Of a DNA stretch of 37,022 bases, positions 1 to 25,728 are shown piece by piece (within the stretch, counting starts at the first letter, position 1; each line of letters opens with the position of its first letter). The translations under genes were made by a program, and so were the position numbers. The stretch comes from Acidobacteriota bacterium. GTDB lineage: Bacteria; Acidobacteriota; Polarisedimenticolia; Gp22-AA2. The stretch covers positions 1-37,022 of the forward strand of contig QHXY01000297.1 in the NCBI GenBank assembly GCA_003223145.1. Direction: 5' to 3'. The notes beneath the pieces were generated by a model. That model did no database searches. It saw only the letters and a program-made list of their open reading frames with translations, and was not told the origin of the DNA.

Positions 1-196
1 ACCGTTTCGGGTCCTCGTCGGGGCGCGCCATCGCGCGCCGGTGGTCGTTCATGCAGAAGCCGGTCGAGTAGTGCAGCCCCACCACGTCGATCCCCTGCTC
101 GAGAAGCACCTTCGCCGCGAGGGTGCTGTCAAGACCTCCTGAGAGCAGTCCGATCGCACGGATCGTGCCCCCCGACCCTGCGGCTCGTTCGCTCAT
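1..196 (-). CDS. PP-loop ATPase of the ThiI/MnmA type, N-terminal part only
   Basis: This is the start of a gene that leaves the window at the left edge; 65 residues are visible. Residues about 16-26 read LLSGGLDSTLA, the SGG-D-S PP-loop that binds ATP in adenylating enzymes which thiolate tRNA or make related sulfur transfers. The next segment, GLHYSTGFCMNDH, resembles the early part of MnmA/ThiI-related thiouridylases. The ATG overlaps the TGA of the TusA-like gene (ATGA), so the two are probably translated together. A sulfur carrier next to a PP-loop ATPase suggests a sulfur relay to tRNA. The exact substrate cannot be told from this fragment. Confidence 0.75.
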   Translation of the reverse strand, partial: MSERAAGSGGTIRAIGLLSGGLDSTLAAKVLLEQGIDVVGLHYSTGFCMNDHRRAMARPDEDPKR

Positions 197-453
197 GGAG
201 TCTTCTCCCGGCGGCGGTTCTTCTTGACGAACAGTCGGTACTCGCGTCCGTTCTGCGCGTGACCCAGGTACTCGTGGCCGGTCGAGCGGCACCAGGCCGG
301 CAGGTCGACGAGAATCACGCGGTCGTCCGATACGACCTCCAGGATGAGGCCTGCCGTCATGGCTCTGATCCTCTCGGCAGTCCTGATGATCGGCACAGGA
401 CAGTAGAGGCCGACCGCATCGAGAACTTCGTCCGGGCGAACGGAGACATTCAT
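193..453 (-). CDS. TusA-like sulfur carrier protein
   Basis: An 86-residue protein of the usual TusA/YedF/SirA length. It contains the family signature LDAVGLYCPVPIIRTAERI at about residues 11-29, where the Cys-Pro pair carries the persulfide. Such proteins relay sulfur from cysteine desulfurases to acceptors such as tRNA thiolases. A second cysteine lies in PAWCRSTGHEY, as in many family members. The ATG at 453 is preceded by GGAG about ten bases upstream. Its stop overlaps the start of the PP-loop ATPase, so it is the first gene of a two-gene unit. Whether it is functionally TusA or a YedF-like paralogue cannot be decided here. Confidence 0.85.
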   Translation of the reverse strand: MNVSVRPDEVLDAVGLYCPVPIIRTAERIRAMTAGLILEVVSDDRVILVDLPAWCRSTGHEYLGHAQNGREYRLFVKKNRRREKTP

Positions 454-514
454 GTCATGCTCCACCCGCGGGCCCTGGATCCGCTTCGAGGTGACGGCGG
501 TCCGCGGAGACGGC

Positions 515-523
515 ATCTTAGCA
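515..523 (-). promoter_or_regulatory. Extended -10 promoter for the TusA-like gene
   Basis: On the minus strand the sequence reads TGCTAAGAT, a TGn-extended -10 hexamer (TAAGAT) about 60 bases upstream of the ATG at 453. No good -35 was seen. It lies in the only gap between the M28 peptidase and this gene. Confidence 0.45.
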
Positions 524-551
524 GAGCGCTCGGCGTCCGGGCAACGCGCCG

Positions 552-2819
552 CTACCGCGTACCGAGCAGGTGCCGGGACCCTTCGACCGTCGCCTGATAG
601 ACGAAGACCCGCGGGCCATCCGCCGCCGCATCCATCCCCAGGAGGTCGTCCTCGAAGTCCGCCTTCAGCTCGACCGACAGATCCCCCCCGTTCGGGACCA
701 GGAGGCGGAACGTTCCGACCGGGTCGTGCCGGGGAGTGATTTCCACAAACGTGTACTGATGGCGCAGCGCGTCTCCCCTTCCGGGCACCCGGAACCCCGA
801 GCGCGAGGTGAAGACATAGCTGATCCGGTCCGTGGGTATCGGCGCTTTGAGCTCGGTGGTGACGACCGTCTCCTCGCCACCGTCTCCGGGCACCGCTCCG
901 GCCTCGAAGCCGACGCGCTCGGCGGGGAACGGAACATCGAGGCGATCGGTCGTCGCGTCCGGGTCCAGGGCGCGGAGGCCCGGGGCTCGAAGCCGGACCC
1001 CGCGCAATGTGTCCAGGGAACGGACCATGGCGGTCGCCCGACGAGCCTGCACGTCGACCCGCTGGCGCACGCGGATCACCTGGCGGTGGCGGTAATCGTA
1101 CGCGGTGAGGACCGCGTTCGCGCCGGCCAGAGCGACCGACACGATGAGCGCCGCGAGACCGACGCGTCGCCCGGAGAGCCACCACCAGAACCGGCTGTGC
1201 AGGCAGTCCTGAAATGAAGCGACGTGAGCGACGTACAGAACGAACGGCATCGCCAGCAAGAAGACCGAGCCGAACAGAATCGGCGTCGGCGGGGACACAC
1301 CTCCGAGCTCGATCAACGTGCGGTAATCCTCGGGCGTGAGGAGCGTCGTCAGCGGCGCGGCGGCGGCAAGACCCAGGGCCAGCTTCCTGCCGGTGCTTTC
1401 GACAAACAGGGACGCCAGAAACATCGCCACGGGCCAGGCCATGAACACCGCGAGCTCGGGCCACCCGGCCCGGAGGGCCGTCACGACGCACAGCACCGGC
1501 ACGAGGAAAGCCGCCGCCAGGTACGGTCCGGGTTCGACGGTCGGCTTGATGCGCCGGAACAGGTTGAGACCCAGCCAGCCGGTCACGAGTGTCCACGCGC
1601 CCCCCTGGACGAGATGCAGCCCCTGGTGCGCCATCCATGGGTAACGGACGTGGTGCAGACGCTCCATCAGGGTCTCCGAGAGAAACATGCCCGCCAGACC
1701 CAGGGCGGTCGCGGCGGACGCAACGATGATCACCCGGATCGTCTCGGCGATGGCACGCGGGGCCGCGACAACCCGCACGCGCCTCAGGACCAGGAGGCAG
1801 AAGCCCAGAAGCGCCGCGCACGACACGAACGTGAGGGCGGTCGACGGCACGAGGATCCCCCTGCCGAACAGGGTCAGGGGCAGATAGTGCGGGTCGTCCC
1901 CCGGATCGAGCGGCGCCTGCTCCAGATTGTTCAGGATGTCGTCGACCACGCGGACGGCGCGCTCGAGCGCCCGCTCGCGCACGCCGCTGACGGCGTCTTC
2001 GACCGTGTGATAGCCCCACGCGGGATAGGTCCCGCTGAGCAGGAACGCCGGCACTTTCCGTTCGAGGAACGGCTCGTGGTCCGAGGAGTAGGGCAGACTC
2101 AGGAAGCGCGGCGCGATGCTCCACAGCGGTCGCGCCGCCACCCCTTCGACGCCGGTATCCCGGGTGGCGCGCAGCAGCAGCTCCTGCGCCCAGAGGGCGG
2201 GTGGTCTGGGCACCGGAGCGACCAGGAGATCGCCCCGGCCGACTAGCTCGAGCGCAATCACCGCCCGCACGGGAGTGAGATCGGCCTGCGCGACGAACTC
2301 ACGCGAACCCAGGAGTCCTTCCTCCTCCGCGCAGAACGAAATGAACTCGTATGTCAACCGGTGTGGACGGCCCGCGGCCCGGCGCGCGACCTCGAGCAGG
2401 ACGGCAACGCCGGAGGCGTCGTCATTAGCGCCGGGAACCGCGGCGTTCCGCGAATCGTGATGGGCGGCGACGATCACCGTGTCGGGGGACGATCCCTCCA
2501 GCCGGCCGATGACGTTCCTCGAATTGACCGAGCGCTCTCCTTCGCCGTACGTTACGAGGGGGACGTCCTGCACGGTCACGGACAGGCCCGCCGATTCCAT
2601 CTCGCCGCGCACGTAATCGGCCGCGCGCCGGTCGGCCTCCGTCCCGGTCTTGCGGGGGCCGATGGTTCCGGCGAGCATGAGGACGTGACGGAGCGCCCCG
2701 CCCGGCGCGCCGGCGGCGGACATTCCGGCGCGCGCGGGCGGCGCGAGCGTGATCGCAAGCAGCGCCGCAAGTGCAAGCGCGCGGGGGGGATACGTCGGGA
2801 CACTCGTTTCTTGACTCAC
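552..2819 (-). CDS. M28-family zinc aminopeptidase with C-terminal membrane domain
   Basis: A secreted or membrane-anchored metallopeptidase of about 755 residues. A signal peptide (ALALAALLAITLAPPARAG) precedes the M28 catalytic domain. Zinc-binding and catalytic residues are visible in AAHHDS, GANDDASG, CAEEEG and YHTVED. After the roughly 290-residue peptidase come about eight hydrophobic segments and a soluble tail of about 200 residues, an architecture like the membrane-bound M28 group that includes ER Fxna-type proteins. Substrate specificity is unknown. A GTG start 30 bases further upstream (2849) keeps the frame. The GTG at 2819 is preferred because the likely -10 element lies at 2830-2838 and because it puts the signal peptide nearer the terminus. 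Confidence 0.85.
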   Translation of the reverse strand: MSQETSVPTYPPRALALAALLAITLAPPARAGMSAAGAPGGALRHVLMLAGTIGPRKTGTEADRRAADYVRGEMESAGLSVTVQDVPLVTYGEGERSVNSRNVIGRLEGSSPDTVIVAAHHDSRNAAVPGANDDASGVAVLLEVARRAAGRPHRLTYEFISFCAEEEGLLGSREFVAQADLTPVRAVIALELVGRGDLLVAPVPRPPALWAQELLLRATRDTGVEGVAARPLWSIAPRFLSLPYSSDHEPFLERKVPAFLLSGTYPAWGYHTVEDAVSGVRERALERAVRVVDDILNNLEQAPLDPGDDPHYLPLTLFGRGILVPSTALTFVSCAALLGFCLLVLRRVRVVAAPRAIAETIRVIIVASAATALGLAGMFLSETLMERLHHVRYPWMAHQGLHLVQGGAWTLVTGWLGLNLFRRIKPTVEPGPYLAAAFLVPVLCVVTALRAGWPELAVFMAWPVAMFLASLFVESTGRKLALGLAAAAPLTTLLTPEDYRTLIELGGVSPPTPILFGSVFLLAMPFVLYVAHVASFQDCLHSRFWWWLSGRRVGLAALIVSVALAGANAVLTAYDYRHRQVIRVRQRVDVQARRATAMVRSLDTLRGVRLRAPGLRALDPDATTDRLDVPFPAERVGFEAGAVPGDGGEETVVTTELKAPIPTDRISYVFTSRSGFRVPGRGDALRHQYTFVEITPRHDPVGTFRLLVPNGGDLSVELKADFEDDLLGMDAAADGPRVFVYQATVEGSRHLLGTR

Positions 2820-23601: not shown

Positions 23602-24525
23602 TCAGGACGGTCCGGGGCCTTCCGGGTACAGCGGTGTGCTCAGGTATTTTTCCCCGCGGTCGGGGAGCAGCGTCACGATGTGGCCCCTCTTGACCCTGCG
23701 GGCGACCTGCAGGGCCGCAAACATCGCGGTGCCCGAGGAGATGCCGGCGAAGATGCCCTCGCGGCGCGCCAAGTCGCGGGCGGTCTCAAAGGCGTCCGCG
23801 TCCATCACCGTCATGCGTTCGTCGACCAGGCTCCAGTCCATGATCACGGGAACGCGGGACTCCGTCATGTTCCTGAGGCCTTGCTGCGCGTGCCTGGGTT
23901 GCGGTTCCACCGAGACGACCTTCAGGGCCGCGTTGCGCTCTTTCAGACGCCGCGCCATGCCGACCAGCGTGCCGCAGGTGCCGAGCGTCAGCACGAGCCA
24001 GTCGACGCGCCCGCCGGTCTGTCTCCAGACCTCCTCCGCGGTGCCCTCGTAGTGCGCCAGGGTGTTGTCGGGATTGACGTACTGGCCGACACGAAAGTAC
24101 CGCGCGGGGTCCCGCGCATACAGGGCGTCGGCGAGATCCCACGCCTCATCCGAGCCGCCCTCTCTCGAGGTGAACACGATTTCGGCGCCGAGGGCACGGA
24201 GGATTTGCCGCCTCTCGATCGACACCCTCTGCGCCATGGTGATGACCACCCGGTAGCCCTTGACCGCTCCCACCATCGCCAGACCGATGCCGGTGTTCCC
24301 GCTGGAGGATTCCAGGAGCGTCATCCCTGGCTTGAGGTCGCCGCGCCTCTCGGCCTCCTCCACGATGCGCTGTGTGATCCGTTCCTTGACGCTGCCCATC
24401 GGGTTGAACCCCTCGATCTTTGCGTAGATCGGTGCCTCGGGCTCGGGGTTCATCCGCCGGATGCGCACCAGCGGCGTGTGACCGATCGTCTCCAGGATGG
24501 TGTCGCACGCGGAGGGCGTCTCCAT
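23602..24525 (-). CDS. PLP-dependent cysteine synthase family protein
   Basis: A 307-residue fold-type II PLP enzyme of the CysK/CysM/CBS group, which makes cysteine from an activated serine. IGHTPLVRI starts the domain. The PLP lysine sits in NPMGSVKERI, followed by LLESSSGNTGIGLA (substrate loop), GTCGTLVGMARRL (phosphate loop) and the C-terminal GIFAGISSGTAM. The NPMGSVKER loop differs slightly from the commoner NPGGSVKDR, and the choice between CysK, CysM and a cystathionine beta-synthase is open. ATG 24525 lies only nine bases after a consensus TATAAT, so its message may be leaderless. aroDE follows 17 bases later. Confidence 0.88.
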   Translation of the reverse strand: METPSACDTILETIGHTPLVRIRRMNPEPEAPIYAKIEGFNPMGSVKERITQRIVEEAERRGDLKPGMTLLESSSGNTGIGLAMVGAVKGYRVVITMAQRVSIERRQILRALGAEIVFTSREGGSDEAWDLADALYARDPARYFRVGQYVNPDNTLAHYEGTAEEVWRQTGGRVDWLVLTLGTCGTLVGMARRLKERNAALKVVSVEPQPRHAQQGLRNMTESRVPVIMDWSLVDERMTVMDADAFETARDLARREGIFAGISSGTAMFAALQVARRVKRGHIVTLLPDRGEKYLSTPLYPEGPGPS

Positions 24526-24666: not shown

Positions 24667-25728
24667 ATGAACGAGGCGACTGCGGCGAAGCTGACGAGCC
24701 ACGCCCGCTCCGGCGGCTGAGCGGCCAAGCTCAGTCCGGTGGACTTGAGCGAAATCGTCAAGGAATTCGCCGGGGCGGCCAAGACCGATCCCAACCTGCT
24801 CGTCGGCTTCGAGACCGGCGATGACGCCGGTGTGTACCGCCTCTCGGACGAGGTGGCCCTGGTCCAGACGGTCGACTACATCACCCCGGTGGTCGACGAT
24901 CCGTTTCTCTACGGGCAGGTGGCGGCGTCCAACTCGATCTCGGACGTCTACGCCATGGGTGGACGGCCACTCACCGCCATGAACCTGTGCAACTTCCCTG
25001 CCCGCAACATCGACAAGGCGTCGCTGCGCAAGATCCTGGAGGGCGGCTTCAGCAAGATCAAGGAGGCCGGCGCCACCCTGGTGGGCGGGCACACCGTGCG
25101 CGACGATGAGCTGAAATACGGTCTGTCGGTGACCGGTCTGATCCACCCGAAGCGGATCCTCACCAACGCCGCGGCGCGGCCGGGGGACCACCTGGTCCTG
25201 ACCAAGCCGATCGGCACCGGCGTGATCATCACCGGCTTCCGCCGGGGACTGGCGTCGGACGAGCTGCTCATGCGGGCCGTGGACTGGATGGCGGCCCTCA
25301 ATCGCGTGGCGTGCGAGACGATGCTCGAGTTCGACCCGCATGCCTGCACCGACGTCACCGGTTTCGGTCTGAGCGGTCACGCCCTCGGGATGGCCAAGGG
25401 CAGCAACGTCCGGATGCGGATCCGGTTCAAAGACGTCCCGCGGTACGAGGAAAGCCTCGACTTGATCGGCCAGGGCGTCGCCACCTCGGTGACCGCCTCG
25501 AACATGCAGGCGGCGGGAGACTTCCTGACCTTCTCGGGAAACTTCACCGACGAGGAGAGGTGGCTCATCGTCGACCCGCAGACCTCGGGCGGACTGTTGA
25601 TCTCCCTCCCCGCGGATCAGGCGCCGACGCTCGTCGCGCGCCTGCACGAGCGCGGCAACCGGGTGGCCGCCGTTGTCGGCGAAGTGGTGCCGGCCGACGG
25701 CAGGCCGGGTCTGGAAATCGTCAAGTAG
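24667..25728 (+). CDS. selD: Selenide, water dikinase (selenophosphate synthetase), a selenoprotein
   Basis: SelD makes selenophosphate from selenide and ATP, the selenium donor for selenocysteine and selenouridine. Read from ATG 24667 the frame gives LTSHARSGG, then TGA at 24718-24720, then AAKLSPVDLSEIV and a complete SelD. That includes FETGDDAGVYRL, LVQTVDYITPVVDDP, SNSISDVYAMGG, GGHTVRDDELKYGL, DVTGFGLSGHALGMA and DPQTSGGLL. The TGA sits at residue 18, aligned with catalytic Cys17 of E. coli SelD and three residues before the essential Lys. Sec is known at this site in many SelD proteins. A hairpin with SECIS features follows at once. Read as a stop, the gene would begin at GTG 24739 without its catalytic loop. 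Full length is 353 residues with Sec18. Confidence 0.93.
24718..24750 (+). promoter_or_regulatory. Sec UGA codon and bacterial SECIS hairpin in selD
   Basis: Eight bases after the UGA a hairpin forms: GCTCA-GTCC (24729-24737), loop GGT (24738-24740), GGAC, one bulged T (24745), then TGAGC (24746-24750). A bulged U in the upper stem and a GU in the apical loop about 18 bases after the UGA are the features SelB recognises in the E. coli fdhF element. Confidence 0.8.

Follow-up and report, generated by a model that had tools for sequence, protein, structure and literature searches.

The question raised by one gene in the window (the whole stretch of 37,022 nucleotides of Acidobacteriota DNA that was analysed) is whether a UGA near the start of a selD reading frame ends translation or is read as selenocysteine (Sec). 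The frame runs from an ATG to a TAG and is interrupted by this single UGA. An automatic gene caller would report only what lies downstream, a simple open frame from a GTG that lacks the catalytic loop, so the Sec reading restores the full extent of a gene that standard callers would shorten. A sequence-only reading of the same DNA had proposed that SelD here is itself a selenoprotein and is easily mis-annotated. The shortened frame does exist, which makes the risk of mis-annotation real in principle, and the selenoprotein claim is supported by what follows. When the gene is read through the UGA, its product scores 373.2 bits against TIGR00476 (curated cut-off 125) and carries the PF00586 and PF02769 domains (AIRS N and C). 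The preferred reading, held at a probability of about 96%, is a selD gene in which the catalytic residue, Sec18, is inserted at the UGA under the guidance of the SECIS hairpin behind it. SelB carrying Sec-tRNA-Sec would insert Sec at this codon, the hairpin would guide the insertion, and the product would make selenophosphate from selenide and ATP; both the enzyme activity and the actual incorporation of Sec are predictions made from sequence. The coordinates are collected in Table 1.

Table 1. Features of the selD locus and neighboring or selenium-related genes of the window, numbered from the first letter of the window
Feature	Position	Strand	Basis
selD, encoding a SelD of 353 residues with predicted Sec18, stop TAG	24667..25728	+	translation with TGA read as U
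UGA in place of the catalytic Cys codon, predicted to encode selenocysteine	24718..24720	+	alignment to 3u0o and 2yye; kept in relatives
Table-11 open reading frame, GTG start, 329 aa, without the catalytic loop	24739..25728	+	list of open reading frames
Predicted bacterial SECIS hairpin	24729..24750	+	fold of -10.8 kcal/mol; conservation of pairing
Upper stem of the predicted SECIS, 4 bp	24734..24737 with 24741..24744	+	
Loop of the predicted SECIS, GGU	24738..24740	+	
Competing hairpin that encloses the UGA and excludes the SECIS	24715..24736	+	fold of -13.0 kcal/mol
PALP-family gene, cysteine synthase-like, transcribed away from selD with 141 bp in between	23602..24525	-	
Gene with a TusA/SirA-like C-terminal part	193..2124	-	judged by eye
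ATP-pyrophosphatase-like start, adjoining the TusA/SirA-like gene	2..292	-	

The UGA stands where the catalytic Cys is expected. In a phmmer alignment, U18 falls on the catalytic Cys (Cys17) of PDB entry 3u0o, which we take to be the SelD of E. coli, confirming the earlier placement. The motif at the site is UAAK here, CGCK in 3u0o, and CAAK in 2yye, presumably the SelD of Aquifex aeolicus, in which the residue would natively be Sec. Because CGCK corresponds to UAAK, the second Cys of the E. coli enzyme (Cys19) is Ala here, as had been claimed. A search of 41 genomes of the class returned 37 strong SelD matches, and 36 full-length proteins were kept; the SelD of genome G010 was left out because a contig end cuts it off before the UGA site. 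Exactly the same UGA is found in 31 of the 36, and a Cys codon (TGC or TGT) in the other 5, which makes Sec-SelD the main form in this class. A wider search at 1e-40 covered 396 genomes of the phylum and matched SelD in 256, and among the 150 phylum matches listed, 116 have one TGA and 33 have none, the last being the cut-off SelD. Named Acidobacteria relatives, two of them gp22, have SelDs that are 85-89% identical to this one.

Two observations on gene content can be set beside these counts. One genome (G064) holds two different UGA-containing SelD genes (G064:C364 and G064:C66). The PALP-family gene adjoins selD in four of five close relatives' loci searched, and the fifth (L024) gave no match.

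Could the UGA be a genuine stop after all, with translation restarting at the GTG to give a protein without its catalytic loop, or with the gene a pseudogene or the product of a sequencing error? The 329-residue table-11 frame would suit such a restart, and from the available text of PMC4513850, some termination at the UGA is to be expected in true selenoprotein genes as well. However, the recurrence of the same UGA throughout the class argues against a stop, and relatives keep both the UGA and the homology upstream of it. The 17 codons 5' of the UGA also evolve as protein: compared with five close relatives, the summed differences are 6, 6, and 25 at codon positions 1, 2, and 3, and therefore this stretch is translated. 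A stop would further cost the enzyme its catalytic residue, a site that is occupied by Cys in all 25 Cys-SelDs read. A genuine stop, a pseudogene, or an error is thus very improbable, and the frame is coding on both sides of a UGA that is best read as Sec.

A bacterial SECIS is expected just 3' of such a codon, and the hairpin proposed earlier is present there. Its loop lies 17 nt after the UGA, and the lower stem has one bulged base. The available text of PMC13188914 gives four constraints on bacterial SECIS elements: a loop of 3-9 nt with an upper stem of 4-16 bp, a G in the first two loop positions, a distance of 16-37 nt from UGA to loop, and a minimum free energy of at most -7.5 kcal/mol. 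The values for this hairpin (3-nt loop and 4-bp stem, GGU, 17 nt, -10.8 kcal/mol) agree with all four. The bulged U and the GU of the loop, which had been offered as marks of the element, are not conserved, for in relatives the bulge on the 3' side is a C or is absent and the loop reads GGA, GGG, or GGC. All 27 distinct UGA sequences share the second G of the loop (column 22).

The hairpin folds as had been suggested, but its energy is not special. The fold of 24718-24757 has a z of -1.29, with 25 of 200 shuffles equally stable, and 37 of 305 downstream codon-phased windows within selD are as stable. RNAalifold predicts zero consensus pairs across the 27 distinct UGA sequences. In wider windows, the more stable competing hairpin can be the minimum-energy fold. 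All eight of its pairs are kept in 10 of 10 sequences of the own and sister families (f1 and f2), and 4 to 8 of the 8 in the other 21 sequences. A recoding switch formed by this UGA-enclosing hairpin was considered and is not claimed because its bases are shared with the SECIS stem, so that its conservation is inseparable from that of the SECIS.

Since neither energy nor RNAalifold gave support for the hairpin, a recoding test was relied on instead, in which the 27 distinct UGA sequences were recoded synonymously according to the codon usage of the individual genes. The 5-pair helix of these sequences has 117 Watson-Crick pairs compared to 69.1 +/- 4.0 after recoding, and none of 2000 recodings reaches the observed number. 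With one sequence per family (the first listed, 11 families), the count is 53 against 29.1 +/- 2.5, again with 0 of 2000. Measured against shuffles, 87.4% of the cells in the helix are paired compared to 77.7 +/- 1.9; 12 cells have changed on both sides, and pairing drops when the helix is slid. At the codon level, the Gly or Ser wobble base opposite the Asp GAC of the 3' arm is T in 18 of 20 sequences, and GGT and AGT together make up 98 of the 751 GGN/AGY codons in those selD genes. The helix register is broken in three f3 sequences (G016, G017, and G018).

Because the sequences tested had also served to choose the helix, the result was replicated outside the class with a register-free measure, the longest stem. 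The samples were 20 of the 96 other-class UGA SelDs and 20 of the 31 other-class SelDs with no stop among the matches listed. In the 20 Sec-SelDs, the longest stems sum to 89 compared to 57.5 +/- 4.1 in recoded sequences (0 of 1000), with stems of merely 2-3 bp in 5 of the 20. The 20 Cys-SelDs from other classes have no excess pairing by this measure (60 against 61.2; 673 of 1000), nor do the five Cys-SelDs of the class (14 against 16.7; 975 of 1000).

These results bear on the proposal that the hairpin merely follows from GC-rich codons and the G/S-P-x-D-L motif of the protein. The ordinary energy of the hairpin for selD and the lack of an RNAalifold consensus agree with that proposal, and the residues encoded go part of the way to fixing GGNCC and GACCT. 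Nevertheless, synonymous recoding keeps the residues and loses the pairing, and the effect recurs outside the class with the Cys-SelDs as a negative control, which leaves a by-product most unlikely. The hairpin is thus a selected element: its pairing is under selection in Sec-SelDs and not in Cys-SelDs, which is indirect evidence for its predicted role in binding SelB and directing Sec insertion.

Selenocysteine insertion also needs its machinery, and selA, selB, and selC had been expected elsewhere in the genome. The host assembly (3.86 Mb, 474 contigs, 88% completeness, with selD on contig C273) has selA at 550 bits and a complete selB at 332 bits with the winged-helix domains SelB-wing_2 and wing_3. 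That part of the expectation stood, but selC did not turn up: no tRNA-Sec was found in this assembly by the Rfam scan, by a search with an anticodon/T-loop pattern, or by comparison with a congener's tRNA-Sec block. The one RF01852 match over the cut-off is tRNA-Ser(CGA), the one match to the pattern was judged by eye to be no tRNA, and the tRNA-Sec block from congener G008 finds no equivalent in the assembly, just a 46-base match inside another locus. The Rfam scan scored 150 of the 643 candidates in the assembly, so a tRNA-Sec may have been missed. In three congeners of 92-100% completeness (G005, G007, and G008), tRNA-Sec is present with the anticodon UCA, along with a UGA-SelD, selA, selB, and an FdhA-like gene with one TGA, and the strain studied here probably has tRNA-Sec as well. 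An ETF-QO-like gene adjoins tRNA-Sec at the loci of the congeners.

The machinery is found in the near-complete relatives, and it accompanies the UGA-SelD through the class. Among the 31 genomes with a UGA-SelD, selA is present in 30 (G017 is without it) and selB is over the cut-off in 30 (G038 is without it). A tRNA-Sec of >=63 bits is present in 25 of them, with 78 of the 659 candidates scored, so that others may have been missed; the six without one are the own genome (G000), G002, G006, G011, G031, and G039. All 30 loci given to ARAGORN were called tRNA-SeC, each with the anticodon UCA. Genome G020, listed as 100% complete, has tRNA-Sec and selB and no selA match.

The further selenoproteins that had been anticipated have a predicted example in the same genome. 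A second UGA-containing gene (G000:C219) codes for an FdhA-like alpha subunit (formate-dehydrogenase-like; 630 bits, cut-off 666), with its UGA at the Sec-His site in NRTUHAPS and a hairpin with a GGUCU loop. At 16 FdhA-like loci read in the class, the site is UGA in 14 and Cys in 2. A changed code or near-cognate readthrough might instead place Trp or Cys at the UGA of selD. This would agree with a frame open on both sides of the codon but is extremely improbable: TGA ends 18 of the 22 open reading frames picked in the window and is therefore the normal stop of a standard code, the UGA coincides exactly with the catalytic Cys and has a selected hairpin behind it, and the genome has selA, selB, and the second UGA gene.

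Sec decoding in this genome probably has at least one further client, the FdhA-like enzyme. The selenoproteome is a lower bound because FdhA was the sole other selenoprotein model searched. The selenouridine synthase model TIGR03167 matches none of the 41 class genomes, with a positive E. coli control, so that SelD here most likely serves Sec decoding. The use of Sec in Acidobacteriota is known, and the available text of PMC12013277 describes one species with three known selenoprotein genes.

Some features of these genes were noted in passing. The FdhA-like gene (L125, 1-3408, minus strand) is followed by NuoE- and NuoF-like domains. Its product is without the N-terminal region of the model, as the TIGR01591 match starts from position 53, and FdhA-like matches in families f1, f2, and f4 likewise begin near position 50. 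In the window itself, the C-terminal part of one gene resembles TusA/SirA (MNVSVRPDEVLDAVGLYCPVPII...), and SirA-like proteins are often selenium-linked.

The five Cys-SelDs of the class (L042, L043, L044, L046, and L047, from genomes G022, G023, G020, G019, and G015) all belong to family f3 and form one clade with support of 100/100 and a branch length of 1.08. All five carry an N-terminal PF11823 domain, a Se/S carrier. A point conversion of Sec to Cys within f3 is unsupported; the separate, long-branch clade and the extra domain suggest that these Cys-SelDs arose by replacement rather than by a single codon change.

Outside the class, PF11823 is present in 2 of 20 Cys-SelDs (L141 and L157), and a class V aminotransferase domain of the NifS or Sec lyase type in 5 of 20 (L142, L146, L147, L148, and L155), one of them partial. 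In total, 12 of 25 Cys-SelDs are fused, 7 to PF11823 and 5 to an aminotransferase, compared to none of 51 Sec-SelDs. Fewer than 66 open codons lie upstream of the Sec codon in 43 of the 51, too few for either fusion domain, and the other 8 have the two SelD domains and nothing else. No probability is attached to this bias because the sample was hand-picked and its members are related. The bias as such is already known: according to the available text of PMC4561486, SelDs fused to NADH-dehydrogenase-like or NifS-like domains have Cys in all but one case. PF11823 is the Pfam family also called DUF3343, for which a role as selenium chaperone has been proposed from gene neighborhood (PMC5322559, available text). 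A PF11823-SelD fusion is not mentioned in the accessible parts of the mostly open-access literature consulted, which include PMC4561486, PMC5322559, and PMC13188914. The fused Cys-SelDs, including the fusion to the PF11823 carrier, are a more novel side observation than the Sec-SelD itself. They bear on the form in which selenium reaches SelD in the cell, which a 2026 review calls "incompletely elucidated" in its available text (PMC13188914). One could tentatively imagine two designs of SelD in Acidobacteriota, a stand-alone Sec form and a Cys form often fused at its N-terminus to a selenium supplier, in which Sec would allow the use of freely delivered selenium and Cys-SelD would profit from channelled selenium, although this reading as a whole is rather doubtful.

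How does this gene compare to known systems? Sec-SelD is the second most widespread family of bacterial selenoproteins. Set against the Aquifex aeolicus Sec-SelD (2yye/2zod), the protein here belongs to the same family, has one Sec at the same position in the N-terminal loop, shares the (U/C)AAK motif, in which Ala takes the place of the second E. coli Cys, and differs in no categorical way. The E. coli Cys-SelD (3u0o) is of the same family too (224 bits), but Cys17 is replaced by Sec and Cys19 by Ala. Like the SECIS of E. coli fdhF and the bacterial consensus, the element here is a stem-loop just 3' of the UGA, with a 3-nt loop that begins with G, a spacing of 17 nt, and a fold of -10.8 kcal/mol. 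Unlike the fdhF element, whose loop is presumably GGUCU, it has a GGN loop in selD and no conserved bulge, whereas the hairpin in this genome's FdhA-like gene does have a GGUCU loop. Sec-containing SelDs are an established family of selenoproteins (PMC1794560, PMC4561486, and PMC13188914, in their available text), and in one reference set Sec is present in 19% of the SelDs detected, at a position that never varies (PMC4561486). The gene is thus an ordinary Sec-SelD, and what is new is the instance itself, the prevalence of the form across the class, and the recoding evidence for its hairpin.
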